54,585 nt of DNA from Chrysochromulina tobinii (lineage: Eukaryota > Haptophyta > Prymnesiales > Chrysochromulinaceae), in NCBI GenBank assembly GCA_001275005.1, contig JWZX01002887.1, forward strand, positions 1 through 54,585, written 5' to 3'. A model generated the notes under the pieces. That model saw only the letters and a list, made by a program, of their open reading frames with translations. It had not been told where the DNA came from and searched no databases. The position numbers were made by a program, and so were the translations under genes. Of the stretch, positions 5,096 to 31,506 are shown piece by piece; the first letter of the stretch is position 1, and each line of letters starts with the position of its first letter.

Positions 5096-7124
5096 TCAGC
5101 GTGTCGTAGTCCCGTTCGGAGCAAGAGGGCCAACCAATGGAAACGCCATCGTGCATGTGCCGTCGAGCAGGCCCCTCGTCGCGGCTACATCGGGGGCATG
5201 AAACCCGTCCCCTCGGGCCCCATCATTTGCATGCAGCACCCGTGTGAACTTGCACCCGCCAATGTCAAGGAAGGAGAGGAGCTCATTGAACTTGGCGACG
5301 CTGAACTCCTCCAGGGGCAAGTCGAACACGTTCGGGTACGAGCTGGTCGCCTCGAACATGTGGGCGGTTTGTTGCTGCAAAAACTCACGTTCAGCCAGCG
5401 GTTGGGGTGCATGGGACGTCCTGTTGGTAACGTCCTGCTGGTCGCGTCGGTAGCGTCCTATTGAGCGCGCAATCGAGCTGACCTGGTTGCCGACGTTGCG
5501 ACGGAAGCTTCGGAGGATTCGAAGTTTGGGTCCGAACAACGCAAGCGTTTGGTTTAACGGCCCCAGACAGCCCACCAAGTCCTTGAACCCAACATAATGC
5601 CGGCTTGGCGTCGACGGCATCATGTCGCGGAGCCAGCCGCACATGTGCTGCTTCAGCCGGCCGGTTTGCGGCACGGCGTATCGCGATTGGCCAAACGCAC
5701 CCCTCACGTGCTCCGAGATGGACAGCTGATACGTCGAGAACAGCCTGCCGAAACCAGTCGGCGGTCGATAGGGATAGAGGCGATTGCAAGAGGCAAGTAG
5801 GGGCCATTCGAGGCGGTTCGAGGCATTCATTCGCAATCAAAGGCAACAATGGATTGCAGGCCATTCGAGGCGGTTCGAGGCGGTTCGAGGCGGTTCGAGG
5901 CAATCAGTCGCCATCGATTGCAGTCTCACCTGCCGAGGACGCTCCGCGAAGAACAGCCCAGTTCCAGAGGGTCGGACGGCTCCGGCGAGATCGTGAGCTC
6001 GCCCGAGAGAGATACAAAGGGGACCGCATTCAGCATGTCCAAGATGGTCGTCGACCCTGATCGGCTTGTTGAGATAATGATCAACCAATGCTGATCACAT
6101 CCCCGAGATGCCATGGCAGGCGCGTTTCTCGCGGGATCCATCGGCGTACCACGCACCTGTGGGGAAGACATGGCGCCGTGGTGAGCACTAGCATGCCCTC
6201 GCAGGATCCAATTGGCGTACAGGTAGGCGTAGCACGTACCGGGGCAAGAGGGCCGAGGCGATGGATCGGTGGCAGCGGCGGCGGCAGCAGAGATGGGGTC
6301 GGTGCTGCGGCGGCCAAGGGCGTCAGCGTCGATGGGCTGCGTGGGGGTGGCGAGATCGACGAAGGCGACCGCATGGAGCAGACGCCATCCAGCAGACCTC
6401 TCGTCGCACCTTCGCCCGGCCCAGCATACCCGTCCCCTCGGGCTCCATCATTTGCATGCAGCACCCGTGTGAACTTGCACCCGCCAATGTCGAGGAAGGA
6501 GAGGAGCTCATTGAACTTGGCGACGCTGAACTCCTCCAGAGGCAAGTCGAAGACGTTCGGGTACGAGCTGGTCGCCCGAAACATTTCCGCCGTGTGCCTC
6601 TGCAGCAATGTACTGGCACCCTTGATCGTTTTCCAGAAGGCCGAGTTCAATTGCTTGGCGACGTTGCGCCGGAAGCTTCGGATGATTCGCACATTGGGTC
6701 CCAGCAGCGCGAGTGTCTGATCCAACGGCTCGATGCAATGGACTATCTCCTTGAAGCCAAAGTAATGCCGGCTTGGATGTGACGGCATCATGTCGCGCAG
6801 CCAGCCGCACATGTGATGCTTCAGGCGCGCCGCTTGTGGCACCGCGTATCGCGCCGTGCCATAGGAACCGGTCAGACCTGGAGAGAGCGACAGATCATAG
6901 GTCGAGAAGAGTCTGCCGATCACGCTCCGTGGAGCGCAGTCTGCACGCGGGTCGGAGAGCCTCAGGCCAAGCGAATGATCCTCAGTCTCGGGTGAAATCG
7001 CGAGCTCTCCTGAGAGCGAGATGAAGGGCACCGTGTTGAGCATGTCAAGGATCGTCGTCGAGCCCGCTCGGCCTGCGGAGATCACCACGAGCCAGTTCGT
7101 ATCGCACCATAGTGGAGCATCCAT
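5096..7124 (-). CDS. Tandem two-domain sulfotransferase (three exons, possibly two genes)
   Basis: Two homologous PAPS-dependent sulfotransferase modules in tandem. Module 1 is 7124-6240; module 2 is 6156-5930 joined to 5744-5096. Each module has the 5'-PAPS loop (VISAGRAGSTTILDMLN in module 1; IISTSRSGSTTILDMLN in module 2) and the 3'-phosphate loop (IIRSFRRNVAKQL; ILRSFRRNVGNQV), then a nearly identical stretch (SSYPNVFDLPLEEFSVAKFN, followed by ELLSFLDIGGCKFTRVLHAN). The loop spacing is that of Golgi/carbohydrate-type sulfotransferases. I infer one 586-aa protein: intron 6239-6157 (CCCCG/GTACGT to CCCCACAG/GTGCG) joins the modules in phase 0, and intron 5929-5745 (GGCAG/GTGAG to TTTCGGCAG/G) is required to restore module 2. 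Alternative: two genes, the second starting at an ATG at 6141 or 6114; without the first splice, module 1 reads on to a stop at 6081, overlapping module 2. No N-terminal signal is seen. Confidence 0.75.
5745..5929 (-). repeat. Intron of sulfotransferase module 2 filled with a decamer minisatellite
   Basis: 185-nt GT-AG intron, phase 2, inside R/LFST of module 2. It contains at least six copies of the decamer GGTTCGAGGC (plus-strand reading), at about 5806-5826 and 5861-5902. The exon end and the intron end share the 8-mer TCGGCAGG, a short direct repeat spanning the intron. Confidence 0.75.
6157..6239 (-). other. 83-nt intron joining the sulfotransferase modules (introner-like family A)
   Basis: On the minus strand it begins GTACGTGCTACGCC and ends with GCATGC, three bases, TGCTCACCACGGCGCC and a pyrimidine-rich CCCCACAG. 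The same 3' block ends introns at 21675-21757, 21758-21846 and 30607-30681. The start of the intron (GGTACGTGCTACGCC ... TGGATCCTGCGAG) is repeated with changes at the start of the next exon (GGTGCGTGGTACGCC ... TGGATCCCGCGAG). Confidence 0.7.
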
Positions 7125-10952: not shown

Positions 10953-13900
10953 TCATGCACTAGAAGGCGGAGGTGCGCGATCGCGTAGCCGCGCGCGCCA
11001 CTGTTGCGCCTCCCTTTCCCTCTCCTGTCTCCAGCGCGCCTCATCCCGATGGTTGGCCCGCCGGCTCGTATGCCCGGCCTGTGTGGCGCGCGGTCCAAAG
11101 AGCTCCGCTTCCAACTTCCTCGCCTCGGCGCGCAGATCAGCGGTGAGGTGTGTGACGCTGACCCAAGACTCCTCCCAGAGATCCCCGTCTGAGTCCTCCC
11201 CTTCCCATTCCACGAGGACGTCCAACGGTCGCCCTCGCCGCCCCTCATGTCTCCGTACGGCTCGAATGCACCTCACTGCCCATCGTCCACCATCGTCAGC
11301 CTCGATGCCGTCTCGCACCGGTCCCATAGCGATCCTCTGACGCACCTCGCGCCTGCCGCGTAGAACGTCTTGCCGTCTCCTTTTCCCCCTCTGCGGATCC
11401 CACCTCGGCGCTATCTCGATCTCCATCACCTCGCCCACATCCTCCCCTGCGCGGCCACTGAGAGTATGCTGCGACGCCACCTCCGCCGGTCCGTAGAAGA
11501 CCTCTGTGGGTTCTTGCCCCACTCGCACATAGTGACCGACGCGCAAGTTATTGATGCCCAGTTTCCTCCACTCGCACGCGCTCAGGATCTGCTTCGTCGC
11601 CAACAGAGCTCGGAGCCCTTCGTGAATCAGCTCGAACCTCTCCTCCACCTCCTGCGTAGTGAGCAGCTGCCAACAACGCCCGTCCGCCCTCTTCGCCCAG
11701 CGTCGCATGCCCTCTCTTTGCGCCGCGAGCGCTCTGCCTTGTTTTGCCCGTGCGAGCCGGAGATTGCAAAGGTGGAGAGACCACCAGCCTCCAAGGCTGA
11801 GCCATCGTCGCCACGCATGCTTTTGCGCAATGCAGAGCTCCGCGATGCGGACGCCGGTCGTCCGCAGTTCTCGTGTGTCACCCAGGGCCGCGCGCAGAAG
11901 GTGCTCCCGCAGATGCGCCCGACCCGAGCCATGTAGCACGCACCTTCCGCTTTTTCCACGCCCCCGCGCAAGTACGAGTCGCCACGCGAGCCACACCCGC
12001 AGCATGAGCCATTCTCCCGGCCCATTTGCAGCCTGTTCTTCCTGTATCTCGGCCTGCTGTTCCTGCACGGCCGTGCGCAAGCGGCGCCTTGAGTACCCAT
12101 CCAGTCCCTCCAGATTCGCAACGTAGTCCCTTGCCAGGCGAAGTTGCCGCAACGCCGCCCTCCTGCGAACAGTTGCAAGCCGCGTAGTTCGGAGCATAGC
12201 GTGAAAGATCTTGCCCAGGAGCCGTAGATTCCGTACTCGCGCCCAGAACGCTTCCCGCCCCGCTTTGCAATGTTCCTTTCCCAGCTGCTGTTGTCGGCAC
12301 CCACGCACTACCATTTCCGTCAGTGCAAGTCTCCACTGACCGTTCGAGTCCGCCCTAGAACCCGAGATGCGTATCATGCCGGCTGCCGCCGCTCGCCAGT
12401 GCTCGGTCTCCCATGCGTCCCGAGCTCCACGCTGAATGCAGTTCTGGACATATTGTCTCTGAGCCAACGACCCCGCTGCTCCATCCGCCGCGACCCATCC
12501 CTGCAATCCTTGATGAATGAGAAGGATCAGGTCGTCGAGCTGGCTGTGCGGCACGAGCTCCTTGCCAACCTGCGATACGACCATGCGCCTTCGTGCCTCC
12601 ACCGCCTGCAATGCGTACGCTTTACGTGCCGCCAGCAGCGGGTCTCCCACACATTCGAAATGGAAGTGCCACCAAGTAGGTGCGCACTCCGCCCGTGCGA
12701 ACCATCTCTGACCGTCTCGGATCGCGTCGCCGGACCCCACCTCCGCCCCATCATACTCGGATTCTTCCTGATCGGAGATCGTACAGACCTCGCCGAGTTC
12801 CTTCTCGAGGCGGGTTCGAAGGATAGCCGCTAGCCGAGGGTGGATCACAGCCCGCCGTCGCGCCCCTGCCGAGGCATGAATCTCGCGCCATCCGTTCCGC
12901 TGCGTCCGGCACCCAAACGGACACCATTCCGCCTGCAGCAGTCTACGCATCATCGTGTTGGCGTATGGCTGGTCCACATACTGACAGCGTCTCGCTGCGA
13001 TCTCGTCGCACAGTTGTTGTGTCTCCGCCGTGACGCCAAGCAGATGCACGTGTTCTGTATTGTCCCGCAGAACGGTCCCAGAGACCCGACTGCGCAACCG
13101 AGCCGCCACAACTCGACGCATTCCCTGCATCGCGTACTCCTGGGCTGCGCCTCTGTGCGACGGGAAGGTCATGGAAGCAAACTTGACACTCCCACGCGGG
13201 ATCGGGTAATCATCCTCGAGCCCGAAGGTATCGCACGCAACATCCGCCCACTCATTGAGGGGCTCCCCCACATGCGAGGTCTGCCACAGCAGCACCAGCA
13301 CGGCCACCTTCCTCCGTAGGCGCTCAAAGTGTTCCAAGAGCTCGGCGGCAAGCCGATCCCCGCGCGCACGCGCGCTCAGCCTTCCGAACCGAAGCATCGC
13401 CCGTACGGGCGACGTAGCGTCAAAGACCAAGATGACCCTCTCTTCCGATCCCCGCCTTACAGCATCCGTGAGTGCGTCCAGCTGCGCCGCAAGTTCGGCG
13501 ATGTAGTTATCGGCTTTCACGTCCGCCTCGAAGATCCTCCCTCCCAGTACGCGCCCTTCGTGATCGATCGCCGCCCTCGTGGCGATGCGTACTTTGCCAC
13601 CGTTCTCCGTCTTGACCTCTCTCCAGCCGCCGTCCAGAGTATAGATGCGCGTTGCGCAGATGCGCGCTGACCACGTAGTCAGCTTGCCCCAAAGCTCCCG
13701 CTGTGTCGAGAGCTGTACATGAGTCTCTTGCCTTTTTGTGCCATCCCCCGCGACGACCTCGACGTCCCCCAGCGCTAATCTCGCCCGCGCCGTGATCTGC
13801 ACCGCCGGGTCCAACAGCCCTAGTTGGTGTGGCTCCAGCCTTCCGCCTTGCCGCAGGCATAGAAAGCCCATCTCATCAAAGACGTAGTGAAACCTCATCA

Positions 13901-20055: not shown

Positions 20056-23000
20056 ATGAGATTTTTTCGGTGCTCAAACGGCCGCGCCTGCCAACGAGCG
20101 CGGATGAGCCGCGTGAGCGCGCACGAGTGCGGCGGCTTGATCTTCGACGCCGACTTTGATTCGGGCAATATAGAGAGCGTGGAAGCGCGTGGAAGCAACC
20201 AATTCACCTTGTACACGCGTGCGGATGCCATCGGCAGCAGGGAGAGGAATCGCGCCACCTGGTTCTACTTTGCAGTCCGTGGTGCTCCGCCTGGCATGCT
20301 CTTGTTCTTTGAGATACGAAATATGAATCCGCAGAGGGCCCTGTACCAGCAGGATATGCGCCCAGTGGTCCGCTCCCTGCCGTCGCAGCCAGACTGGCAG
20401 CGGATCCGGACTCCGTGCCAGCAGGCCGCCGGCAGCAAGGATACCCACGAGTTCGCAATCACCTTTGCCCACAAGGTCGAGCGGCGCAACGAGACGCTGT
20501 ATTTTGCATTCAGCTACCCTCAGAGCTACACCGAGTGCCAGGCACGCCTGGCGTGGCTGGATGCCATCTTCGGGCTGCCCAAGCCGGCGGTAGTGCCTCC
20601 ACGTGCGCCGAGTGGCGAGACGCCCACCATGGCGCCTACCGGTGGAGAGCCAGCCGCCGCTCCGACAGCCGCCGCGGCATCGAGCGGCCCAGGCCTCATG
20701 GACACGCTCGCGAGCGCGTTGAGTGCGGGAGCCCAGCCGGCGGCAGTGATGGACCAAATGGATCATCTACGCCGCGAGCGGCTGCTGAGTGCCGCTCGCG
20801 ACGCGGCGTTCGAGGCGCTCGCACCGGAGCCTCGGGCGGCTAGGGCCGCCAGGAAGGCTGCCGCACCTTCTACTGCGCGTGCCCCGGCCGCTCAGAGCGT
20901 GCCGTCCCCACCACCTTCACCGCCCCACCCGCCACCGTCTTCGCCACCGCCCTCGCCGCCTACCGCATCGCCGATGCCATTACTCCGATTTGAACAGAAC
21001 ATGTTCAAGTCCGGTGCGAGCCACCCTTACACGGCAGGCAACCCTTACACGGCAGGCAGCCCTTACACGGCAGGCAACCCTTACACGGCCGGTGCGAGCA
21101 GCCCATACATGGCCAGTTTCTCTCAGGGTGCACGGCGGCCTGCGGTCCGCGGAGGAGCCCTCTTCACAGAGACTCTTCACAGGCCAGCGGTCCGCGGAGG
21201 CGCCCTCGCACAGAGCCTGACCCAGAGACCGCCCCTCTGGCCTGGCCCACCTCCGCCTCCACTCCCGTCGCGGGCCCCGGCCGCCTTGAGCGTGCCCGCG
21301 CCGTCGTCGCTGCCGCCGCTGTCGTTCAACGCGGGCAGCCTGATGATCAGTGCAATCAGTGCAATCCCCCCGGGGCGTCCATCCGCTTCGCGCGCCGTCA
21401 CGCCACAACTGGATCGCTTGCTACAGCGCCTGTCGGCGGCCACGAACCGTCTCGAGACCAAAGTGATCGCTTTAGGAAGGGCGGAGATGGACGCCGAGCT
21501 CGCCGAGGCCGCGGCGATGAGCGCCGCGGCCCGGCTGCCCATCGAGAGCCCTTCGAATGTATACTACCATCGCGAGCTACTCACGCGCTCCGTCGACGGA
21601 CGGCGCATCGACCTGCTCACCATCAGCAGCAAGCGCGGCTTCGCTGAGCGGCCGCAGTTCCAGCCTTCGCAGTGGTACGAGCCGGCGCTCGAGCCGGCGC
21701 TGATCGCTCACGGAGCATCAGCATGCAAATGCTCACCACGGCGCCCCTTCCCCACAGGTACGAGCCGGCGCTCGAGCCGGCGCTGATCGCTCACGGAGCA
21801 TCAGCATGCAAGTGCTCACCACGACGCCCCTTCCCCTTCCCCACAGGTACGAGCCGGCACTCGAGCCGGCGATGCTGCCCGAGATTGAGCGCGGAGTCAA
21901 GGCGTGGTGGGAGGGCCTGCCGCCCCCTCCACGCGCGCGCAGCTTCCCCAATAAGAAGGTGAGCTTCTTCTGATTGCATGCTGATTGCCTCCCTCATCAG
22001 CGCGCAGCTTCCCCAACAAGAAGGTGAGCGTCCTCAGCGCGCGACGGACAGATGATCTCAGGCGCTGCTCGATCGTCTCTGAGTGCATGCTGATTGCCTC
22101 CCTCATCAGGTGATCTTCCTCAGCGCGCGGGTCCACCCGGGGGAGACGCCCTCCTCGTTCGTCTTCGACGGGTTGCTCGAGTTCCTTCTACGCGAGTCCG
22201 ACCCGCGCGCGGCCGCTCTGCGCGAGCGGTATGTGTTCAAGCTCATCCCGATGCTCAACCCGGACGGCTGCTACCGCGGCAACTACCGCTCCGACCAGGC
22301 GCGCCAACTGATTGCATGCTGAGTGCATGCTGATTGCATGCTGAGTGCATTCTGAGTGCATTCTGATTATATGCTGATTACATGCTGATTGCATGCTGAT
22401 GGCATGCTGATTGCATGCTGATTGCATCTACCGCTCCGACCAGTTCGGCGCCAATCTCAACCGCTGCTACAACTTCGCGAGCCTCGAGCGGCAGCCGAGT
22501 ATCTTTGCGGCGACGGCCGTGCTCAAGAGCCTGCATGCCCGCCGGCTGCTTGAGTGCTACATCGACTGCCACGCGCACGCGGGCAAGCGCGGCTGCTTCC
22601 TGTACGGCAACCGGATGGCGCCGACCGACCAGCGGCACCTCGATGGCCCCTTGTACACGTTCCTGCTCGCCCTCAATACGCGCTTCGTCGACACGGACCA
22701 GTGTGTGTTCTACGAGGGCGCGAGCGGGCACGCGGGCTCTGGGCGCGAGGCGGTGTATGCGGCGACCGGCCTCGCGCACGTCTTCACACTCGAGTGCAAT
22801 TACAATGACGGCAAGAGGGTCAACACGCTGCCTTCACGCTACGAGGCGGCCGTGAAGGACGCGCGCTGCCTCAGCCCGCCGCCGCCGCCGCTCCACCCGC
22901 ACGCGCGCTACGGGCCGTCGACGTGGCGCGAGGTGGGCAAGGGCCTCGCGCTCGCAATGCTCGACTTCGCCGGCGCCAACCCCGCCTCGCGCCTCGGCCC

Positions 23001-23133
23001 TCCGTCGGAGCTCGGCAGGGCGCTCAACGCGTACAAGGGGTCGCTCCCCGCGTGGCTCAAGGCGCACACCATCTCGAATACCGGCGGCCACGACTCGGAC
23101 GACGAGGAGAAGGCTACCGCCTCGTGCCGGTGA
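20056..23133 (+). CDS. Cytosolic carboxypeptidase, CCP5/AGBL5-like (M14 metallopeptidase, tubulin deglutamylase family)
   Basis: Four exons, 20056-21674, 21847-21958, 22110-22298 and 22444-23133, give about 869 aa in one frame. Exon 1 encodes the CCP N-terminal beta domain ([59 protein letters not shown]) and a Pro/Ala-rich insert of about 330 residues with a PYTAGN repeat. The zinc peptidase follows: [11 protein letters not shown] (His and Glu ligands), [32 protein letters not shown] (His ligand) and [10 protein letters not shown] (catalytic Glu). CCP5 enzymes trim glutamate side chains from tubulin of cilia and spindles; that substrate is inferred. All three introns have exon-derived duplications at their edges (see separate entries). 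Its start could also be the ATG at 20104. Confidence 0.88.
21024..21092 (+). repeat. 18-bp coding minisatellite (PYTAG repeat) in the carboxypeptidase
   Basis: Four copies of an 18-bp unit starting CCCTTACACGGCAGG, at 21024, 21042, 21060 and 21078, encode PYTAGN/S. It lies in the Pro/Ala-rich linker between the N-terminal and catalytic domains, where length change is harmless. Confidence 0.9.
21675..21846 (+). other. Carboxypeptidase intron 1: two tandem family-A introner-like units
   Basis: 172-nt GT-AG intron, phase 2 (CAGTG/GTACGAG ... CCCCACAG/GTACGAG). It is made of two near-identical units, 21675-21757 (83 nt) and 21758-21846 (89 nt). Each starts with a copy of the downstream exon's first 25 nt (GTACGAGCCGGCGCTCGAGC then CGGCG) and ends with GCATGC...TGCTCACCACG(G/A)CGCC and CCCCACAG, the block shared with 6157-6239 and 30607-30681. 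Confidence 0.85.
21959..22109 (+). other. Carboxypeptidase intron 2: nested duplication with family-B ends
   Basis: 151-nt GT-AG intron, phase 0 (AAGAAG/GTGAGC ... CCCTCATCAG/GTGATC). Two sub-units end in GATTGCCTCCCTCATCAG (at 22000 and 22109). Between them the last 23 nt of the upstream exon are repeated (22001-22023), followed by a diverged copy of the downstream exon start (22024-22043 against 22110-22129). The 23-nt copy cannot be an in-frame exon, so both sub-units are taken as one intron. Confidence 0.8.
22299..22443 (+). other. Carboxypeptidase intron 3: GC-AG intron bounded by a 15-bp direct repeat
   Basis: 145 nt must be removed to join YRGNYRSDQ to FGANLNRC. The 15-mer TACCGCTCCGACCAG ends the exon (22284-22298) and is repeated exactly at the intron's 3' end (22429-22443). 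The junctions read CAG/GCGCGC and ACCAG/TTCGG, a GC-AG intron. The interior is about ten tandem copies of an 11-mer, TGATTGCATGC or TGAGTGCATGC. Confidence 0.82.
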
Positions 23134-23229
23134 AAACCGCGGTGTCCTAGATTAGGCCTAGATTACGAAGAGATGCACAAAGTACGAACCCTTCTATTCA
23201 CAGGACAAGTCTCTGTTGTTCACGCTAAA

Positions 23230-24060
23230 ATGCGCTTCGCCCTCCTCGTCGTCTCCGTCTTTGCGTGTTCGGCGGCGGATTCCTCGCTGCGCGTCGCTCT
23301 CTACGTCGGTAGCGGTAGCAACGCTGGCAGCGCTGGCAACTTCAGCGAGGCGCTGGCGCAGCTCGTCGCGCGGGGCGTCCTAGCGAGCTTTGACAGCCTG
23401 GCAGATGCGGATGTCGGTGCAAAGCTGACGCCCAGCGCCTTCGACGTTGTCGTCTTCCCGGGCGGTTCGGGCTCGGGCGAGTTCAACGCCATCGGGGAGG
23501 CGGGCCAGGCCGCGGTGCGCGCCTTTGTCGCGGCGGGGAAGGGCTATTATGGCACGTGCGCTGGCGGCTTCCTCGCACTCACCGCGACGTGCTGCTCAAA
23601 CTCGACGCACGCGGCGCTCCCCGGCTACTGCGACGGCGGCGTCGGCTGCTCAAACAAGACGGATGCGCTCGCGCTCATCGACTACGCTGCTGCCGAGCCG
23701 TGGGATCGGGGCCACGGGATGGTGTCGATGATCTACGACGACAACACCGTGGCCATGCTCAAGCTCGACCCGGCCGTGTACGGTGGCGGTCGGAACACGA
23801 GCGTCCTCTACTACCAGGGGCCGATCGCCGACCGTGCGTACCCTTCGAAGGGCTACACGAGCGGCGCGACCTTCACCAGCGAGATCCACTCGGGCCATCC
23901 GAATCTGACGACGGGCCAAATGATTGGGACGACCGCGCTTGCCTACACGACGTACGGCGAGGGCCGCGTGCTCATCTCGATCCCTCACCCCGAGGAGACG
24001 GTGCCGCGCCTGAATGACGTCGTTGCCGCGTACGTGCTCTACGCCGGCAAGGCAATTTGA
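23230..24060 (+). CDS. Secreted BPL_N-type class I glutamine-amidotransferase-like protein
   Basis: 276 aa from ATG 23230; this start gives a clean signal peptide (MRFALLVVSVFACSAADSSL). An in-frame ATG at 23173 would add 19 residues and bury the signal, so it is less likely. The fold is the flavodoxin-like glutamine amidotransferase class I type seen in the N-terminal domain of biotin-protein ligases: VALYVGSGSNAG, FDVVVFPGGSGSGEFNAIGE, the nucleophile elbow YYGTCAGGFLA (Cys) and a late RVLISIPHPEET strand-loop with His and Glu, completing a plausible Cys-His-Glu triad. Several N-glycosylation sites support secretion. The substrate is unknown. It lies 96 bp after the carboxypeptidase stop, same strand. 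Confidence 0.78.
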   Translation: MRFALLVVSVFACSAADSSLRVALYVGSGSNAGSAGNFSEALAQLVARGVLASFDSLADADVGAKLTPSAFDVVVFPGGSGSGEFNAIGEAGQAAVRAFVAAGKGYYGTCAGGFLALTATCCSNSTHAALPGYCDGGVGCSNKTDALALIDYAAAEPWDRGHGMVSMIYDDNTVAMLKLDPAVYGGGRNTSVLYYQGPIADRAYPSKGYTSGATFTSEIHSGHPNLTTGQMIGTTALAYTTYGEGRVLISIPHPEETVPRLNDVVAAYVLYAGKAI

Positions 24061-24584
24061 GAAGGTAAGGATTTTTAGCAAGTTAGGCGACAGGCATGGC
24101 GACAGGTCACCACGGAGACCAGCAGGTCACACGGGAAGTTCAAGTTGCTTCGGTAACGGTATTTTAAGTTCGGTACGAGTTTTAGGTGTTCGTTATCTTC
24201 AATCTATGTCATTATCTTTGCGGGATCGGCTGACATAGATCGGATTCTTTTCGACTTGTTTGTGCCGGTCCACGAGGTGACCCGGAGCACGCCCGCGTAT
24301 GCGTGCACAGGGAAAGCCCCGCATCATGAGTGGCCATCCGGGATGATGGAGTGGGCGAGGAGGCCGCTGCGGTGCCACCTCTGACATAGGACTGTCCCGC
24401 ACACTCCATGCAACTGGACATGCATCCCATCTCAACCACCTGCACCACCCGGTGATGGATTCGGATATGCCCCGCAGATGTGCCACGCAGTCGCGAGCTG
24501 ATAGGGCATGAGCCTCCTCTGCTCCCCGGGGTGCGGCGCTCTGCAATAGTAGCGGCCCGTCTTCTTCACTTGCCGGACACGCTC
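24061..24584. other. Convergent spacer
   Basis: Between the stops of the amidotransferase-like gene (+) and the unknown nuclear protein gene (-). An AT-richer patch with TTTTTAG and TATTTTAAG lies at 24070-24190. No gene recognised. Confidence 0.5.
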
Positions 24585-26651
24585 TCATCCGAGCAGGGCC
24601 GCCATGGTCGCGTCGACATCATCCAAATAGTCGCCCTCGCCGAGCTGCGCGCTGCCCGCCGGCAGGAGCGAGCTGCCGCCGCCGCCGCCGCCGCTCTCCT
24701 CCCCCGCAGGCACGCCAGACGGCGCCTCGGCGGTTCTGGTCGATTGGGTGGCAAAGCGTCCGAGGGACGAAATCTCGCCCCATTCCTCGGCGTCGGCCAC
24801 ACGCCGTTGTCTCTCCTCTTCGGCCGCCGCCTGGGCCGCTGCGGCTTGGGCTGCGGCTTGGGCTGCGGCTTGGGCTCGCTTGGCCGCTCGGCCACCCGCC
24901 TCGGCCGTCGCCGCCTCCTCCTCCTCCTCTTCCTCGTCGTCGGGTGAGTCGTCTGAATCATCCTCCGAGTCCTCGGGCAGCAAGCCGCCGCCGCTCCGCT
25001 GACGAGGCTCCGCTGACGAAGCTGACGAAGCCGCGCCGCCCGAGACGGCGCCCGAGGACGAGGCGCCTTCACTCGAGCCAGTGCCGGGCGTCGTGCCGGG
25101 CGTGCGCAGCGGCACGGGCGTCCCGCCCGACGTGCCTTGGGGGCTGTCCACGTCGCCCCCCGGGGCCGCCGCGCGCTTGCGCTTGCCGCCAAGGCCGAGC
25201 GCCACGCTGGCCGTCACGCGGTGGCCCTCACCAGCGTTCACATTCACAGCTTCGGCGGCCGCACCGCCGGCGGCGGCCTCCTTGGCGGCAGCGGCGGCGG
25301 CGGCCAGCTTGGCGGCCTCCTCGCGCGCCGCGGCCTCGCGCGCCTTGGCCTCCTCCGACTTGAGCATCTTGAACCCCAACGAGCCGTCAGGGGCGCCTTC
25401 GAATCGGAAGCCGCGGCGCACAAAGGGTTCGGTCGTGACGGCAGCTGACCAGCCGGCGACGAGCACCTTGGTGCGGACGGCGGCGCCCGCGCTCGAGGCG
25501 GCCAGGCGCAGGCAGAAGACCTCGAGCCGCGAGACGAGCGATGCCGCGAGCACGGACACCTTCTTGTCGCCATTGAGCAACGACCAGGCCTTGCACGACT
25601 CCTTGTGCATCTCGAAGGCGACGCACGTGGGCGCGGGCGTGCGAGTGCCCTCCTCCCAGAAGCGCACGTCGCACACGCCCAGCGGCGCTCCGTCCGCCGG
25701 CTGCTCTGACCAGCGCAGCTCGAGCCGCGTGCCAAAGTCCGCACCCCCCCCCTCGCCGAGCGTGCCCGATCGAAGGTGCACAACCAGCCCCATCGCGAGC
25801 TTCTCCTTGATGGCGCCGTGCGGGAGCGAGGTGGCGCTCACGCGGCTCTCGTCACCGAGCGCGAGCCGCTTGACGCACGCCACGCGGAAGGCCGTTGGAT
25901 CCACGCCCGCCCCAACGTCCACGTCGAGCCAGACCGCATTCGACCATCTGTGGTGCATGCAGGTGCGGCAGCGCATCGCGAGCTGCGCCACCTTGGCGGC
26001 GTCCTTGGCGACGCACGCGAACGACTGCGCGTTGGACTCGGCGAGGCGCGCGTGCGCCGTCAGCCCAAAGTCCTGCGTCGCTAGCGTCATCAGCTCCTTG
26101 CCCACCTGCGCCGGGCTCAGTGCGCGGCCTGACGAGTCGGCCGCGTCGAGCACGAGCATCACGCGCGTGTGGCCCTTGCTCGGCGCGGGCCCGTCGTTGC
26201 CCGCGCGCTCCTGGCGCAACTTGGCCAGCTGCTTGTTCACCTGCTCGGGGTACCGCTTCTGCAGCAGCAGCACGCACTCGTCCTGCGGCAGCACCGGGAG
26301 CCCACGCTGGCGCGCGAGCTTTGTCGCGTGGTCGAGCGTGCCGAGCACGCCTCTCAGGTCTTCGGCGCGCGCCTTGGAGACGAGAAGCTGCCGCATGCCG
26401 CCGCGCGGCGCGGTCAGCTCGAAGGTCAGCTTGCCGCTCTCGAGGAACTTGGCATGCACCTTGCTGATGGAGCCGAGCGCGTGGAGAGACACCTTGTCGC
26501 CCGCGCCGGCGGCGAGGCAGAGCGCGCCGGAGGAGAGCGCGAGGCCGAACTTGTCGAACTTTGAGGGCGCGCCTTGCCCGCTCACATTCGTGAGCTCGCA
26601 GTGCGCGTCGAGCGCGACATGGAGAATGGGGCCGGTGACGGTGGACGCCAT
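24585..26651 (-). CDS. Conserved-looking protein of unknown function, putative nuclear
   Basis: 688 aa, intronless, ATG at 26651. I do not recognise the family with confidence. The first about 115 residues look like a compact beta-rich domain (LSLHALGSISKVHAKFLES style strands, ending in QLLVSKARAEDLRGVLGTLD) that faintly recalls the PINT domain at the N-terminus of PIF1 helicases. A second mixed alpha/beta region (about 160-430) contains a Cys/His cluster, CRTCMHHRW. The last 240 residues are low complexity: an Ala/Glu/Lys-rich helix (about 440-480), a basic GGKRKR nuclear-type signal and a long acidic Ser/Asp/Glu run (DSEDDSDDSPDDEEEEEEE). It is divergent from the DBP3-like helicase gene across 232 bp, so shared regulation is possible. 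Confidence 0.7.
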   Translation of the reverse strand: MASTVTGPILHVALDAHCELTNVSGQGAPSKFDKFGLALSSGALCLAAGAGDKVSLHALGSISKVHAKFLESGKLTFELTAPRGGMRQLLVSKARAEDLRGVLGTLDHATKLARQRGLPVLPQDECVLLLQKRYPEQVNKQLAKLRQERAGNDGPAPSKGHTRVMLVLDAADSSGRALSPAQVGKELMTLATQDFGLTAHARLAESNAQSFACVAKDAAKVAQLAMRCRTCMHHRWSNAVWLDVDVGAGVDPTAFRVACVKRLALGDESRVSATSLPHGAIKEKLAMGLVVHLRSGTLGEGGGADFGTRLELRWSEQPADGAPLGVCDVRFWEEGTRTPAPTCVAFEMHKESCKAWSLLNGDKKVSVLAASLVSRLEVFCLRLAASSAGAAVRTKVLVAGWSAAVTTEPFVRRGFRFEGAPDGSLGFKMLKSEEAKAREAAAREEAAKLAAAAAAAKEAAAGGAAAEAVNVNAGEGHRVTASVALGLGGKRKRAAAPGGDVDSPQGTSGGTPVPLRTPGTTPGTGSSEGASSSGAVSGGAASSASSAEPRQRSGGGLLPEDSEDDSDDSPDDEEEEEEEAATAEAGGRAAKRAQAAAQAAAQAAAAQAAAEEERQRRVADAEEWGEISSLGRFATQSTRTAEAPSGVPAGEESGGGGGGSSLLPAGSAQLGEGDYLDDVDATMAALLG

Positions 26652-26883
26652 CTATTCGCGCCGAAAGCGCGCTGTACCGGTACGACGCTTATTCGACCCC
26701 TCGGTGGATGCAATGGAAGTCCGGTGTACCGCAAGGCATGCGAGTCGGCCGTTTTCGGAGCGTTGTGGCGGGCGCGCGACGGTGCTGTCCACGTCGATAC
26801 CATCCACTCCCGTCAGCTGTGCTCGTGGGTCCCCGGGCCGTACACCCGGCCTGCATCCCCGGTTCCATCGACCGCCACGAGTG
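26652..26883. promoter_or_regulatory. 232-bp divergent promoter region
   Basis: The only sequence between the start codons of the unknown nuclear protein (-) and the DBP3-like helicase (+), so it must hold both promoters and 5' UTRs. No TATA box is evident. Confidence 0.65.
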
Positions 26884-28767
26884 ATGAACGTCAAGAAGCT
26901 GCTCAAGCAGGCCCTCAAGGCGGGCCGAGCCTCGGGCAAGAAGAACACGCTTGAGCGCGCCGAGCTCGAGCAGATCGTCGTCGCCCAACTCGTTGCTTCG
27001 GGCAAGAAGCAACAGAAGGCCATGCAGCTCGTCGCGAGCAAGCTCTCTGAGGAGGCGTGCTTCGTGCAAACGGGCTCGCTGGTCAGGTTCGTCAAGGAGG
27101 AGGAGGAGGACGCCGTCGCGCCGCCCGCGCCCGCTCCCGCTCCCGCTCCCGCTCCGGCGCCTGCAAAGCGCAAGGAGCCCACCGTGGAGCCGCCGCAGGC
27201 CAAGAAGGCCAAGCCGGCGAGCAACGGCGGCCCCCCCGCACCGATGGTTCCGGCCGGCCCAAGCGGCGTCCTCGGCCAGGTGCGCATGATGGACGAGGCG
27301 GCGGCCGACGCGTACTGCAAGGAGAATGTCATCTCGGTGACCGGGGAGGGCGCTGAGGCCTTCCGACCGGTGGCGGGCTTCGCGGAGGCAGGCTTCGGGC
27401 CGGAGGCGCTGCAGGCGACGACCAGCTTCGCGCGCCCGACGCCCATTCAGAGCTGCTGCTGGCCGCCGATGATGTCGGGTCGCGACACCGTGGGTGTGGC
27501 TGAGACGGGCAGCGGCAAGACGCTCGCCTTCTTCCTTCCGGCGATGACGCACGTGCTCAAGCATTCCGGCGGCCCACGCGCACCCGGCGTGGCGGTGCTC
27601 GTGCTCGCGCCCACGCGCGAGCTCGCCATGCAGAGCGAGGAGGTGTGCTCGAAGGCGGGCAAGCCTATCGGCCTCAAGAGTGTGTGCGTCTACGGCGGCG
27701 TCGATAAGAAGCCACAGCGTCAAGCGCTCAAGGAAGGTGCGCGGGTGGTGGTGGCGACGCCCGGCCGGCTCCTGGACCTCGCCAGCGAGGAGGGGAGCGG
27801 CGCGCTCCGGCTCGACGGCGTCACGTACCTGGTGCTCGACGAGGCTGACCGGATGCTCGACATGGGGTTCGAGAAGGACGTGCGCGCCATCATCGGCATG
27901 ACGAGCCCCACACGGCGCACGATGATGTTCACGGCGACGTGGCCCGACTCAGTCGAGGCTCTCGCGAACGAGTTCCTCTCGAAGCCCATCCGCATCAACG
28001 TCGGCTCCTTTGACCTCACTGCCAACAAGCGCGTCACGCAGACGGTCGAAGTCATCGACGAGTCCAACAAGCCCAAGCGCCTCAAGGAGCTCCTCCAAAA
28101 GTACGTCTGCTTGCGTCTGCTTGCGTCTGAGTGCGTCTGAGTGGGTCTGAATGCCTCTGAGTGCCTCTCATGGCCTTTGTTGACCTCTGTTGGCCTCTGA
28201 TGACCTCCCTCATCTGATGACCTCTTGATGACCTCCCTCATTAGGTACCACGGCTCGCGCACGAACCGTTGCCTCATCTTCGCGCTCTACAAGAAGGAGG
28301 CAGCGCGCGTCGAGCAGGACGTGCAGCGCGCCGGCTACTCGTGCATCGCCATCCATGGCGACATGACGCAGGCCGCGCGCACCGACGCGCTCGATCAATT
28401 CAAGTCGGGGCGCACCCCTCTGCTCATCGCGACGGACGTAGCAGCGCGTGGCCTCGACATCCCTGACGTGGAGGTGGTCATCAACTATACGTTCCCGCTC
28501 ACCATCGAGGACTACATCCACCGCATCGGGCGCACCGGGCGCGGCGGCAAGACGGGCATCAGCCACACCCTCTTCACGGGCAGCCCGCAGTTTGAAAAGC
28601 CTCTCGCGGGCGCGCTCCAGAACGTGCTGCGCGAGGCGGGCCAGCCAGTGCCCGAAGCCCTTCTCAAGTTCGGATCTGCTGTGAAGAAGAAGGAGCACAA
28701 GATGTATGGCGCCTTTGCCAGCGCGGCCGGGCCGGTGAAGGCCGCGACCAAGATCGTCTTCGACTAG
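26884..28767 (+). CDS. DEAD-box ATP-dependent RNA helicase, DBP3-type (ribosome biogenesis)
   Basis: Two exons, 26884-28100 and 28245-28767, about 579 aa. The open frame extends far upstream of 26884 by chance; ATG 26884 is the first that makes sense and leaves the divergent promoter intact. A basic N-terminus (MNVKKLLKQALKAGRASGKK) and a Pro-Ala linker with KRK and KKAK signals precede the core: Q motif FARPTPIQ, I AETGSGKT, Ia APTRELA, Ib ATPGRLLD, II DEAD, III TAT (Ser to Thr), IV RCLIFALYKKE, V ATDVAARGLD, VI HRIGRTGR. The tail GSAVKKKEHKMYGAFAS ... ATKIVFD is the DBP3 C-terminal signature. DBP3 works in nucleolar 60S pre-rRNA processing. The 144-nt intron splits AA/G of a Lys codon and ends in CCTCCCTCATTAG. 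Confidence 0.88.
28101..28244 (+). other. DBP3 intron with degenerate decamer repeats, family-B-like 3' end
   Basis: GT-AG intron, phase 2. The interior is a run of roughly 10-mer units (TCTGAGTGCG, TCTGAATGCC, TCTGATGACC). It ends TTGATGACCTCCCTCATTAG, close to the TGATTGCCTCCCTCATCAG end of carboxypeptidase intron 2. Both the intron and the next exon begin with GTAC. Confidence 0.75.
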
Positions 28768-29015
28768 GCCGCGGGTGGAGACGCGTACCGTAGCATGTGG
28801 TCCGTAGCCCCCCGAGGGCGGGCGAGGTGTGCTTCTTCTTGACGTGGAATGTGTCCGTCGGGCAGCGCGCGTGGTATCCTCTGAGATTGTGTTCTGTGAC
28901 GGGGCGGCTTTTTGCATACGGCGCGTTCTCTTGGGCGCTCGTCAGTCGAGCTCCTTCAAGTCGGTGAGCGACTCGACGTCCAAGCCGCCTGGACCCATCC
29001 GTTCGCGTCTCCGTC
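28768..29015. other. Spacer
   Basis: Holds the 3' flank of the helicase gene and the 5' flank of the next plus-strand gene. Nothing recognised. Confidence 0.5.
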
Positions 29016-31506
29016 ATGGCCACTGTCGACTTACCCGCGAGCACGGAGCAGGCTCTCTCGAGGCCTTCGACACTCCAGCGCTGGCTCGAGTTCGCCGGCG
29101 GCAGCGAGTTCCTCGCCCTTCAGCCGCTGCTTCACGGGATGAAGCTCGTCGAATTGCTGCGGATGAGCTCGACGACCTTCGGGCTCACCTCTGGGCTCGC
29201 CAAGCTCGGCATGGTGCCTTCGACCGCACGCCGTCTAGCGGATGAGCTCAACCGGCTGCGCGCCGTGCTTTGCGGCGGCGTGCGCGCGCCACCTTGGCTG
29301 CTGTCACTGCTCGAGCCTCAAAGAGCCGCCGAGCAGAAGCTGCTCGACCTGAACCCGCTGACACTCGGGCCGCCGACGACACTGCACATGCTGCCGCCGC
29401 GCGGGCAACAAGCGATTCCCCCGCAGCCGGCGCCGCCGATGCAGTCGCGCACCGGCTCAGCGCGCCCGAGTCGGACCAGCAGCGGCGCCGAGCGTCGGCC
29501 AGCCAGCGCCCGCCACGCGCGGCCGGCGAGCCAGCCAGCAAGCACCCGCCCAACGCGGCCGGCGAGCGCGCGCCACACGCGGCCGACGAGCGCGGCGCCC
29601 GCCACCCCGACCTATATATGGGCTTCGTCGGTCGTGCCCTCTGAGCGACGTGGTGGTGCACTCCGGCCAGCCCCCGCCAGCGCCAGCCGCGGTGATCGCT
29701 CCGCCCTCCGCCCCGCCCTCCAACGGCTTCCGCGTGCGGCGGCCGCTCTCGGCCCAGGCGCCTCCAATGCCGCGGCCGCCTGCAGCGCTGCGACCCACGT
29801 CTGCACGCACGTGGACGCGCGCCGGCGGCCTCGGCGCTCGACACGGCGCTCGCCCGTCGTCGTCGCGCTCGCCGTACCGCGCTGTGGTGGGCGTGGCGGG
29901 CGGCATCGTCGGCCAGACGCTCAAGAGGCCGTGGGAGTACGGCGGCGGCAGCGGCAGCAGCGCCTCGGGTGCGCTCGATACGGCGCCCAACGGCAGCAGG
30001 CCGAGCGCCGTCCCGAGCGCGCCCGCGAGCAGCCGCCCATCGAGCGCCGTCCCGAGCGTTGGCATCCTGCGCAGCCGTCCCCCGAGCGCCGTGGCGAGCG
30101 CACGCTCGGGCAGCCGCCCAGGCAGTGCGCGCAGCCGCAGCAGCAGCCCGCGAGACCGCGACAGCGCCTTCTCGCAGCCCCCGACGGGCGCCATCGCCCT
30201 CGACGAGGCCAAGCCTACCGGTCTCGCGAACGCCGCAGCCAGTGCATCGGAGCGTCCTGTCGGGCTCCTCGGCTCCGTCCTCCGTCGCGAGGCGGCGATC
30301 GCGGCGCTCAAGACGGCGGTGCAGACGGCGCCGCCGCCCCCCGGACGTGAGCGTTCCAAGCTGCTTCGGACAGTCGCGTACTCGATCAACGAGCTGCGAG
30401 AGGCGACGGTCGACGCGATCGAGCTGCTTGCCGTGCGCCCCGCGCACGCGGCGCGCTTTTATTGGAACGGTATGGATCTCGCCCTCAAGATGCTCACCGA
30501 CCTGCTCTGGGCGCCGCTGCCGCAGACGCTCGACCCGCTGCTGTGCAAGTGGTTTGGCGACTGGACGGTCGTGTGGCTCGCCGAGAGCAAGCGCACCTCG
30601 CGCGAGGTGCGGAGCATGCTCGCGGCCGACCCCCTGTGCATGCACGTGCTCAGCACGGCGCCCCCTCCCCTCTCCCCACAGGTGCAGAGCATGCTCGCGC
30701 TCTTCGCGCCGAATGAGAAGATGCTCAAGCGCTGCCGACGCGCCGAGAAGCGGCTGCTCGCCCTCGCGGCAGATGCGTCCACAGAGGGCGCCGGCATGGG
30801 CGGCTGGGCCAAGCAGAACGCGGAGCAGCGCGCCGACACGCTGCGTGCCGTGCAAGGGCACCGGCTCGGTGCGAGCTACTCCGAGGGTGGTGCGAACCAC
30901 GCGCAGCGCCGCCGCTTTGACAACTTTGAGCAGCTCCTCTACGGGCGAGATGGGGTGCACTTGAAGCACCTCGAGGCGCTGCGTGAGCGTCACGTGGATC
31001 TCGTGTCGCGGGCGGCCAAGGTCGTCCAGTGCTCGTGGCGCCTCTTCGTCGCGCTCCAGCGCATGCGAGCTCAGGCCGCCACCGCCGTCCAGCAGAATGA
31101 GGCGGTCGCTCTGCGCGTGCGCACCGAGTTCGCCCGGCAGAGCTCCATCTCGGCCAGGATAGGGGCGCCCACGCTAGGATCGCCTACCTCCGTTTCACCC
31201 ACCGGGCCACTGATCAGGACCGAGTCGCCGAGCGCCGTCGCGGGCAAGCGATCGTCCCAAAAGGGAGCCTCCACGCCCGCGACGACGCCCTCGGGGAAGG
31301 TGGCAGGCAAAGGGGCGCGAAAAGAGAGCGAGGAGGGTGACGACAAGCGCGGCAGCACGCCTGGCAAGATGAGCGACAGCGCGATCGCCGAGACGGCCAT
31401 GAAGGCCGCCATGGCCACGATGGCCGCGTATGACCCAGAGAAGCAGCTCGATCGCTCGTTCCTGCGCTCGATGGCGATGTCGGTCGAGATGCCCGAGATG
31501 AGCTGA
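29016..31506 (+). CDS. Hypothetical protein with helical C-terminal domain and Ser/Arg/Pro-rich middle
   Basis: Probable exons: 29016 to about 29630, then about 29671-31506, with a candidate 40-nt intron (TCG/GTCGTG ... CCGGCCAG/CCCC) that moves the reading frame as needed; the exact splice is uncertain and two genes are possible. The N-terminal 90 residues form a helical module (TLQRWLEFAGGSEFLALQPL and following). The middle is low complexity with RPASARHTRPTSA-type repeats. From about 30350 on there is an ordered helical domain (LLRTVAYSINELREATVDAI, TDLLWAPLPQTLDPLLCKWF), a basic helix (NEKMLKRCRRAEKRLL), and an IQ-like AAKVVQCSWRLFVALQRMR. An introner-like 75-nt unit at 30607-30681 stays in frame. 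Function unknown; a calmodulin-binding scaffold is only a guess. Confidence 0.55.
30607..30681 (+). other. 75-nt in-frame family-A introner-like intron
   Basis: Begins GTGCGGAGCATGCTCGCG and ends TGCTCAGCACGGCGCC plus CCCTCTCCCCACAG. The 19-mer at 30606-30624 recurs with one mismatch at 30681-30699. Because its length is 25 codons with no stop, it can be spliced or translated; removal joins REV to QSMLALF. Confidence 0.72.

Follow-up and report, generated by a model that had tools for sequence, protein, structure and literature searches.

Introduction

How genomes acquire new introns has long been a matter of dispute. For most of the known introners, DNA transposition with short duplications is held responsible, and terminal inverted repeats (TIRs) are optional for introners of this type, many published families having none. 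Introners with a TSD-derived 5' splice site were reportedly described by Huff in 2016. In the retroposition of SINEs and LINEs by target-primed reverse transcription (TPRT), the target duplication is variable in length, the 3' end is fixed and the 5' end is truncated.

In the available text of Gozashti 2022 (PMC9860276), the characterised introner families have duplications of 3–9 bp, with TIRs in 72 of 177 families, and the search needed similarity that starts near both intron ends. For introners from a Tara Chrysochromulina MAG, the same source gives duplications of 4 bp; there it is the 5' splice site that the element contributes, the 3' one being borrowed (PMC9860276). Daphnia introns attributed to staggered double-strand breaks have repeats of 4–12 bp; they are presented as break-repair insertions, and the available text mentions no insert common to hundreds of copies (PMC4202315). 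Tandem genomic duplication of AGGT segments yields introns that consist of the duplicate only (PMC3443670), and for fungal stwintrons and introner-like elements the available text reports 288 tested cases without target duplication or splice-site co-option (PMC12403724).

Here we analyze a family of short introns of Chrysochromulina tobinii, starting from contig JWZX01002887.1 (54,585 nt; the window). For C. tobinii, 59 Mb in 3,472 contigs and a GC content of 63.4% are published (PMC4580454); the sequence analyzed here has a GC content of 64.9%. A preliminary description of the window had supposed that the family might lack a published description, and indeed none was present among the best matches listed in our literature searches. 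Judged from their sequence, the copies are introners, with an anatomy closer to retroposition than to DNA transposition.

Results

A conserved 25-nt core

The shared block had been noted at four sites in the window, and all four were found in place (16-mer, no mismatches, at 6172–6187 on the minus strand and 21730–21745, 21813–21828 and 30647–30662 on the plus strand). The genome-wide search proposed along with them, in which few copies would have spoken against a family, yielded 709 exact matches to the 25-mer pattern in the 53-Mb genome and 0 to the reversed pattern. The 16-mer gave 860 exact matches (control 0), and in 491 genome matches this 16-mer was followed within 30 nt by CACAGGT (control 0); a chance origin of the block is therefore excluded. 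The shared length of approximately 37–44 nt proposed earlier was too generous, because the C/T tract between core and end varies from copy to copy: the common part comprises 25 nt and a loose TCCCCACAG end. As conservation drops outside the 25 nt, a conserved element of 37–44 nt is ruled out; 5' of the core it is lost at once, and the 3' side alone is common to the copies. Units of exactly 83 nt, remarked upon earlier, are not special, since the 69 clean units measure 63–99 nt (median 79).

To the question whether the block lies at intron ends, 139 of 183 examined copies reach YAG through the C/T tract (ACAG in 126), with GT next in 120 of the 139, under a simple calling rule by which at least 5 of 15 hold-out copies scored as lacking AG carry CAG followed by GT by eye, and in loci L027 and L070 some called AGs do not represent splice sites. 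Copies with more than three core mismatches were excluded; four with exactly four were met in the first 21 loci. Some copies are exonic and lack the C/T tract and CAG, several of them in antisense orientation (L027). Genes that host copies differ by Pfam domain (EMP70, SNF2, DSPc, JmjC and others). Folding of the core showed no gain over shuffled sequence (z 0.26) and four whole introns gave z values of −1.54 to 0.18, so that a structured element was rejected; and a search of the window for known RNA families returned 0 matches.

Duplication of the target exon

Typically, the 5' part of the intron repeats sequence of the exon that follows, from AG/GT onwards. This duplicate (D) measures 15–48 nt (median 28, n = 69 clean units), and 18–43 nt in a hold-out sample (n = 15) from which copies already examined were excluded. 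Against a masked null free of neighbouring cores, the duplicate exceeded the 99% level in 120 of 183 copies and, at the same cut of 14, in 39 of 47 hold-out copies, for which the own 99% null was 16. The left duplicate (D1) begins with GT in 62 of the 69 units. Among 97 units having both features, the right duplicate (D2) starts −4 to +1 nt from the AG in 69, further left within the C/T tract in 21, and at exactly +3, +6 or +9 in one. The insert is predicted to bring the branch site, C/T tract and 3' splice site, and the duplicated target to give the 5' splice site. The exon duplication that gives the 5' splice site, like the second family treated below, did not appear in the preliminary description.

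The length of D and the stretch from D1 to the core (x) are anticorrelated (rho −0.72; −0.70 in the 19 units with identical D), which we read as a limit on the distance between GT and branch site and not as a mark of mechanism. An AGGT-anchored scan gave 92 per 1000 for AGGT versus 26–69 for 17 other anchors, a result that is only suggestive as many matches are decamer repeats.

Introner units in the window

Table 1. Introner units and target duplicates in the window (D1 and D2, left and right duplicate).
Feature	Positions	Strand	Details
Putative introner copy, 83 nt	6157..6239	-	core 6172-6196; end CCCCACAG, followed by GT; target duplicate diverged
First unit of tandem introner pair, 83 nt	21675..21757	+	core 21721-21745
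Second unit of tandem introner pair, 89 nt	21758..21846	+	core 21804-21828
Target duplicate D1, 25 nt, putative source of 5' splice site	21675..21699	+	1 difference from 21847-21871, compared by eye
Target duplicate D2, start of downstream exon	21847..21871	+	matches D1 with 1 difference
Family-2 introner-like unit, end TGATTGCCTCCCTCATCAG	21959..22000	+	carboxypeptidase gene; repeat starts in exon at 21936
Family-2 introner-like unit, 86 nt	22024..22109	+	carboxypeptidase gene; duplicates following exon
Putative introner copy, 75 nt	30607..30681	+	core 30638-30662
Target duplicate D1, 18 nt, 1 difference	30607..30624	+	second copy at 30682-30699

The adjacent units in the carboxypeptidase gene, previously described as separate introns, are both introner units but arose by tandem duplication and directly adjoin, without an intervening exon (Table 1). 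When four treatments of this 172-nt pair were compared, only full removal left the flanking conserved stretches, IDLLTISS and ARVHPGE of cytosolic carboxypeptidase, in one open frame; splicing is predicted to take out the whole pair, either at once or one unit after the other. The 5' splice site of its first unit, GTACGAG, lies inside the duplicate. This first junction is gap-free in 4 of 120 homologs, because the stretch is not conserved. Further downstream, when all of 21959–22109 is removed, 106 of 119 homologs align without a gap, versus 4 of 119 when the boundary is placed at 21962 instead of 21959. The nearest carboxypeptidase named as C. tobinii shows 56% identity and may be a paralogue.

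The duplicate of the minus-strand copy scored 14.0, under one 99% cut (15.5) and equal to, not above, the other. The assignment of its gene as a sulfotransferase could not be confirmed (ORF 6084–7124, minus strand, without Pfam match). Frames are open with the unit kept for this copy (ORF 6081–7124, minus strand) and for the copy at 30607–30681 (ORF 29650–31506, plus strand), and a Pfam search of the ORFs holding the two copies gave no match for either. The window also contains an RVT_1-like ORF (10953–16547, minus strand) below the Pfam cut-off.

Reading frames and conserved domains

Splicing was assessed from reading frames and protein conservation. Confident frames on both sides were available for 37 units: sense on both sides was called for 28, antisense on both for none, and 9 were discordant. 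Upon removal of the unit, 23 of the 28 are in frame, 15 of these only then; one is in frame only when the unit is kept, and four neither way. The 139 spliced-type copies comprise 93 sense, 3 antisense, 2 conflicting and 41 uncalled copies; part of this sense bias, and of that for GT, must come from selection for spliceable insertions. Copies without AG showed an in-frame excess as well (17 of 23), partly from one locus (L027 8/8, elsewhere 9/15).

Ten proteins, chosen by eye among 52 spliced models, were searched against Pfam. Six domains cross the junctions of introns not divisible by three, two junctions lie between domains (both in one Clp-type gene), and two proteins had no match. Frames, Pfam continuity and homolog continuity support the family units as probable spliced introns; the preliminary description had named absence of splicing as fatal to its reading, and frames and conserved domains fit removal.

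Insert ends and traces of donor sites

The 3' end of the insert is precise and its 5' end ragged. The match to a 30-nt longer form is graded from 0 to 30 nt over 230 copies, above control, and reaches at least 20 nt in 10 of them; a GTACGTTG-type start of their own is present in a few longer copies. In 9 of the 69 units the CAG and the upstream exon share no base, and the 3' end is still sharp. A search for exact TIRs of 6 nt or more in the outermost 15 nt was negative in all 69 units. Remnants of the donor site were observed in two pairs (L013 +4669 from +7023; L026 −1637 from −2698), each confined to one contig and, by eye, with approximately 4 nt of microhomology at the junction. Upstream flanks are shared by 11% of 344 same-locus pairs versus 0.34% of 16309 others, tandem units included. 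With close neighbours excluded, an identical core-to-AG stretch was found in 2 of 154 same-locus pairs versus 21 of 9409 pairs between loci, both small counts.

Age of the insertions

The earlier view of a young family holds in part. Duplicates are still identical in 19 of 69 units, indicating that part of the family is young, and one site appears empty in relatives. The EMP70 junction is gap-free in 117 of 118 homologs, and relatives on JGI contigs (P0012, P0013, P0015 and P0016; 77–80% identity) are continuous at the intron site. The presence/absence comparison suggested earlier thus points to one intron absent from relatives, at the protein level and assuming that the JGI proteins were called without splicing. 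Recent copying is probably not the whole account: the core diverges less than D (1.5% versus 4.7%, a gap enlarged by the 3-mismatch cut-off), so that constraint on the core is likely.

A second family

Family 2, which has another 3' end, gave 1018 matches. Duplicates were detected in 36 of 69 units, and 22 of the 36, by manual count, begin with GT; several are tandem units. Family 2 shows the same anatomy as the first family.

Discussion

The 709 copies, the restoration of frames and the one site apparently empty in relatives support the original interpretation as an introner family. On balance, we consider it somewhat more likely than not that the target duplication gives the 5' splice site of these introners and that they are copied from an RNA template by TPRT. 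Insertion would place the 3' part of an intron (the 25-nt core with branch site TGCTCAC, the C/T tract and CAG) in a coding exon, at an AG/GT-like point, with duplication of the next 15–48 nt of exon. With its leading GT, the left duplicate would act as 5' splice site and open the intron, its right counterpart would remain exon, and splicing from GT to CAG would restore the frame. Copying would be RNA-templated, most likely by reverse transcription primed at the target from the 3' end of excised intron RNA; an early halt would truncate the 5' end, joining would occur at a second nick 15–48 nt downstream, and truncated copies would borrow their 5' splice site from the duplicate. The duplication, the precise 3' and ragged 5' ends, the donor remnants, the lack of TIRs, frame restoration and the apparent EMP70 absence are supported at the level of sequence, the RNA template being inferred; the variable-length target duplication, precise 3' end and truncated 5' end expected of SINE-like TPRT are all present. 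Microhomology-driven switching between DNA templates leaves closely similar scars, and the exonic, partly antisense copies without C/T tract and CAG (L027) call for more than an excised-intron template.

That the template was DNA is rather unlikely in our view. A staggered break with 15–48 nt overhangs, or a stalled fork, would be filled via microhomology from the 3' half of a nearby intron, with no RNA involved. The microhomology at both donor junctions, the confinement of both donor pairs to single contigs and the within-locus sharing of upstream flanks (tandem units included) fit such repair, as does the GGCGC(A/T) that the right joint of exonic core-only copies shares with the target (L027). 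It accounts poorly for a 3' end sharp at AG in most spliced units, including the nine without a base shared between CAG and exon, and with close neighbours removed, small counts give local origin weak support. Non-autonomous, MITE-like DNA transposons, as in the introners of Micromonas, Aureococcus and dinoflagellates, are improbable: the literature on this class does describe splice sites drawn from the target duplication (PMC9860276), but neither the 3–9 bp duplications nor the TIRs of at least 6 nt of DNA-transposon introners were found, the duplicates being variable and much longer and the 5' end ragged.

Highly improbable is classical intron transposition, in which an intron is spliced in reverse into a different mRNA that is then reverse-transcribed and recombined. 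It predicts whole introns and no exon duplication, against the truncated introns and 15–48 nt duplicates seen here; the precise CAG end and the strong sense bias would suit it. Least credible is the reading without mobility, by which the block is a constrained splicing motif (an extended branch site) that arose in situ in many introns. Although the low divergence of the core relative to D and the variable C/T tract agree with constraint, exact exon duplicates at the same joint, donor remnants, the different 3' end of the second family, exonic copies of the 25 nt without 3' splice site and the apparently empty EMP70 site (protein level) speak against it.

Extending the favoured RNA-templated reading to both families is more tentative and, as we see it, falls short of probable: two intron families with different 3' ends might multiply by retroposition of excised intron RNA, with reverse transcription beginning precisely at the 3' end of the intron and stopping at random, and the cut target, duplicated over 15–48 nt, giving the missing 5' splice site. 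If true, this would add an RNA-based path to mass intron gain that does without reverse splicing; any short intron could then act as template, and each new intron would retain a fossil of its donor. That two families share one anatomy suggests a general process that works on intron sequence, not a single transposon. The comparison of D1 with D2 dates the insertion, the duplicate shows the empty site and some copies name the donor, so that source, direction and age of single intron gains become measurable.

Like the introners of Gozashti 2022 (PMC9860276), the family consists of many similar introns in unrelated genes, and with the Chrysochromulina MAG introners of that study it shares a haptophyte host; the splice-site arrangement of the latter is the reverse of that seen here. 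It differs from the families in the available text of that source in its 15–48 nt duplicates, in the lack of TIRs and in having only 25 nt and the 3' end in common, with a ragged 5' end. Similarity near both exon borders is not found here, and the 10 longer copies of 230 come closer to it; most truncated copies would presumably fail the both-ends filter. Since searches needing similarity at both ends would mostly miss such families, similar ones may be commoner than known. As in Daphnia (PMC4202315), a direct exon repeat lies at opposite ends of the new intron, but the repeats exceed the 4–12 bp given for break repair there, and the insert is shared by hundreds of copies. Duplicated exon from AGGT gives a splice site, as in tandem duplication (PMC3443670), whereas in the present family the duplicates enclose a foreign block that holds a branch site and a 3' splice site. 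Fungal stwintrons (PMC12403724) likewise reach new sites as sequence-similar introns, in the available text without the target duplication and splice-site co-option seen in this family. Unlike SINEs and LINEs, the units described here are apparently spliced introns of 63–99 nt.

Genome-Wide Occurrence of the Core

All four putative introns in which the preliminary description had placed a shared 3′ block carry it, and its proposal of a larger family was borne out by a search of the genome (53,154,812 bases in 2253 contigs, the window included), which returned 709 exact matches to the 25-nt core pattern against 0 for its reversal. A 16-nt part of the core gave 860 exact matches (reversal, 0), and the single 25-mer GCATGCAAGTGCTCACCACGGCGCC occurs 327 times. 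The 16-mer is followed by CACAGGT within 30 nt in 491 matches (reversal, 0). No description of family 1 introners was present among the literature matches listed, which were open-licence papers on introners and intron gain.

Coordinates of the features discussed in the text (L, sampled genome locus)
Feature	Location	Strand	Remark
Family 1 intron	window 6157-6239	-	
Family 1 intron	window 21675-21757	+	tandem unit, carboxypeptidase gene
Family 1 intron	window 21758-21846	+	tandem unit, carboxypeptidase gene
Family 1 intron	window 30607-30681	+	
Family 2 introner-like units, ending (TGATTGCC..)CCTCATCAG	window 21959-22109		carboxypeptidase gene; exon-duplicate anatomy as in family 1
Family 2 loci elsewhere	L009, L012-L014, L017-L019, L022, L024, L025		
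ORF of 1864 aa	window 10953-16547	-	
Introner core in an IMG/VR contig	L049 4495-4554		
Core-only inserts	L027 1947-2960		contig C343

The genome also contains 58 light-harvesting matches; the PDB chains nearest to the best-scoring one are 9jj8_A (307 bits) and 8z11_A (290 bits), which we take to be haptophyte FCPI proteins. The long ORF of the window, with its weak RVT_1 match (E 7.5e-6, under the Pfam cut-off), is possibly a retrotransposon. The IMG/VR contig at L049 terminates in the introner core, C/T tract and CAG|GT, and is perhaps a chimeric assembly. The same introner copies, spaced by 1004 nt in both cases, are shared by L016 and L021 (contigs C101 and C235), which is a matter of recent duplication or of unmerged haplotypes.

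Anatomy of Family 1 Introns

In a sample of 81 loci (the window, 20 long and 60 short stretches; 283,930 bases) we identified 183 distinct core copies with at most three mismatches. Conservation is at least 92% at 21 of the 25 core positions, to which the mismatch limit contributes, falls immediately outside the core, to 45% 5′ of it and 61% 3′ of it, and is back at TCCCCACAG. A C/T-rich tract ending in YAG 8–46 nt past the core is present in 139 copies; 126 of these end in ACAG, and GT comes next in 120. This exon-side GT, which a 3′ splice site does not need, is there because the intron carries a duplicate of the exon start at its opposite end. With cores masked, local alignment of the upstream and downstream flanks scored higher than the 99% level, set from 3000 cross-locus pairs, for 120 of the 183 copies.

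We refer to the left and right copies of the exon start as D1, which supplies the 5′ splice site, and D2, and to the gap between D1 and the core as x. Among the 97 units having AG and a duplicate, D2 starts at −4 to +1 nt of the AG in 69 (the clean units), further left within the C/T tract in 21 (many tandem, as judged by eye and not one by one), at +2 to +10 in 5 and beyond in 2; it starts exactly at the frame-keeping offsets +3, +6 or +9 in one. In the clean units the duplicate measures 15–48 nt (median 28), x 0–36 nt (median 6) and the intron 63–99 nt (median 79), D1 starts with GT in 62 of 69, and the last base of the upstream exon is G in 82%, the preceding one A in 56%. We take TGCTCAC as the putative branch site, its A assigned by the general yUnAy consensus; this A lies 40–73 nt from the GT and 20–39 nt from the AG.

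A hold-out of 35 loci, picked solely by the exact 25-mer, provided 47 new copies. The earlier cut of 14 was exceeded by the duplicate in 39 of them (the hold-out's own 99% null being 16), and AG was found in 32, with GT after it in 25. The 25 copies with AG and a duplicate comprised 15 clean units, 8 starting further left, one at +2 and one at +5; the clean units had duplicates of 18–43 nt (median 29), introns of 68–86 nt and GT in 14.

At L027 several inserts consist of the core only (25 nt, plus a 17–35 nt duplicate), several of them antisense and part of them in tandem arrays. They lie within an apparent single coding exon and by eye encode in-frame peptides such as RRGEHLHA.

Reading Frames and Splicing

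On the three genes used to train it, the codon-usage model recovered 42 of 45 windows. Among the 69 clean units, frames were confident on both sides in 37 (28 sense/sense, 9 discordant, 0 antisense/antisense), and the 32 less certain units divided into 14 sense/sense, 4 antisense/antisense and 14 discordant. With the unit removed, 23 of the 28 sense/sense units are in frame (15 solely then, 8 either way); one is in frame solely if the unit is kept, and four neither way. Of all 139 AG-type copies, 93 were called sense in coding flanks, 3 antisense and 2 conflicting, with 41 uncalled, against 28% sense and 27% antisense at random control positions. Multiples of three are not in excess among intron lengths (22 of 69), and are in excess among copies without AG (17 of 23; 9 of 15 outside L027).

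After intron removal, six Pfam domains (EMP70, SNF2, DSPc, JmjC, Glyco_trans_1_4 and Gelsolin) span the junction; the introns removed measure 77, 86, 74, 83, 68 and 86 nt, no multiple of three. Cutting 21675-21846 and the family 2 stretch 21959-22109 out of the window sequence leaves a carboxypeptidase frame of 648 aa; if either or both tandem units are kept, the flanking conserved stretches are not in one frame. The second junction is gap-free in 106 of 119 homologs, and the first, in a stretch that is not conserved, in 4 of 120.

Probable Intron Gain in EMP70

The EMP70 junction without the introner is covered by 118 of the 120 homologs listed, 117 of them gap-free within 8 residues. In the comparison with related species suggested at the outset, made at the protein level, four proteins of JGI metagenome contigs (P0012, P0013, P0015, P0016; 77–80% identity) are continuous across the junction, which we take as absence of the intron if these proteins were called unspliced. 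In P0011 (89% identity) the protein reads through the introner, and in two fragments of 98–99% identity the match stops four residues past the junction; therefore, populations carrying the intron exist. Another relative, P0040 (76% identical), has an extra peptide a few residues beyond the junction, perhaps a further introner that a related species carries at another position.

A Second Family

A genome search with the family 2 pattern TGATTGCN{0,6}CCTCATCAGGT gave 1018 exact matches (reversal, 0). With up to 3 differences in 16 allowed, a start-anchored exon duplicate was found at 36 of 69 family 2 3′ ends, against approximately 1.7 expected (245 kb). By hand count, 22 of the 36 duplicates start with GT, the others including tandem units and repeats beginning elsewhere. 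The anatomy is alike despite different 3′ ends, and thus seems to be a property of the process and not of any single sequence. A decamer of family 2 is also present in a longer form of family 1, so the families are not wholly unrelated. Decamers of the type TGATTGCC(A/T)CT form long, apparently intronic head-to-tail arrays in L025, L026 and others, and the array decamer is likewise part of the longer form.

Donors, Age and Route of Multiplication

Judging by matches between copies, x is a donor remnant in at least two pairs: 13 nt at L013 +4669 equal, with one difference, the end of D1 at L013 +7023, the core-to-AG stretches being identical, and x at L026 −1637 contains the D1 end of L026 −2698. 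The longer form, in which GTACGTTGATTGCCACTGATGACCTGCCTT precedes the core, includes a GT of its own. The match to it is graded from 0 to 30 nt across 230 copies (28–30 nt in 4, 20–27 in 6, 10–19 in 7, 5–9 in 34 and 0–4 in 179; 0, 1, 1, 6 and 222 in a control window), and AG was not called in the four longest. At L023 −2938, in a Clp-type gene, 24 nt of the longer form stand immediately after the duplicate.

D1 and D2 diverge by 4.7% overall, and 19 of the 69 units have identical copies. At its 21 fixed positions the core departs from consensus by 1.5%, which argues that it is probably also under a constraint besides copying. AG|GT is present in 39 of 42 copies with uncalled flanks, against 81 of 97 with called flanks; neutral intergenic copies are therefore probably few.

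That both families multiply by retroposition of excised intron RNA, the target duplicate supplying the 5′ splice site, is a reading we hold tentatively and consider somewhat doubtful, slightly the more so because GT starts just 22 of the family 2 duplicates. Excised introns as the sole template are at odds with the core-only exonic copies of L027, some antisense and with the right joint at the microhomology GGCGC. Inverted termini of at least 6 nt occur in none of the 69 clean units. The combination of a constant 3′ end with 5′ truncation and duplications of varying length is the hallmark of target-primed reverse transcription, not of cut-and-paste transposition.
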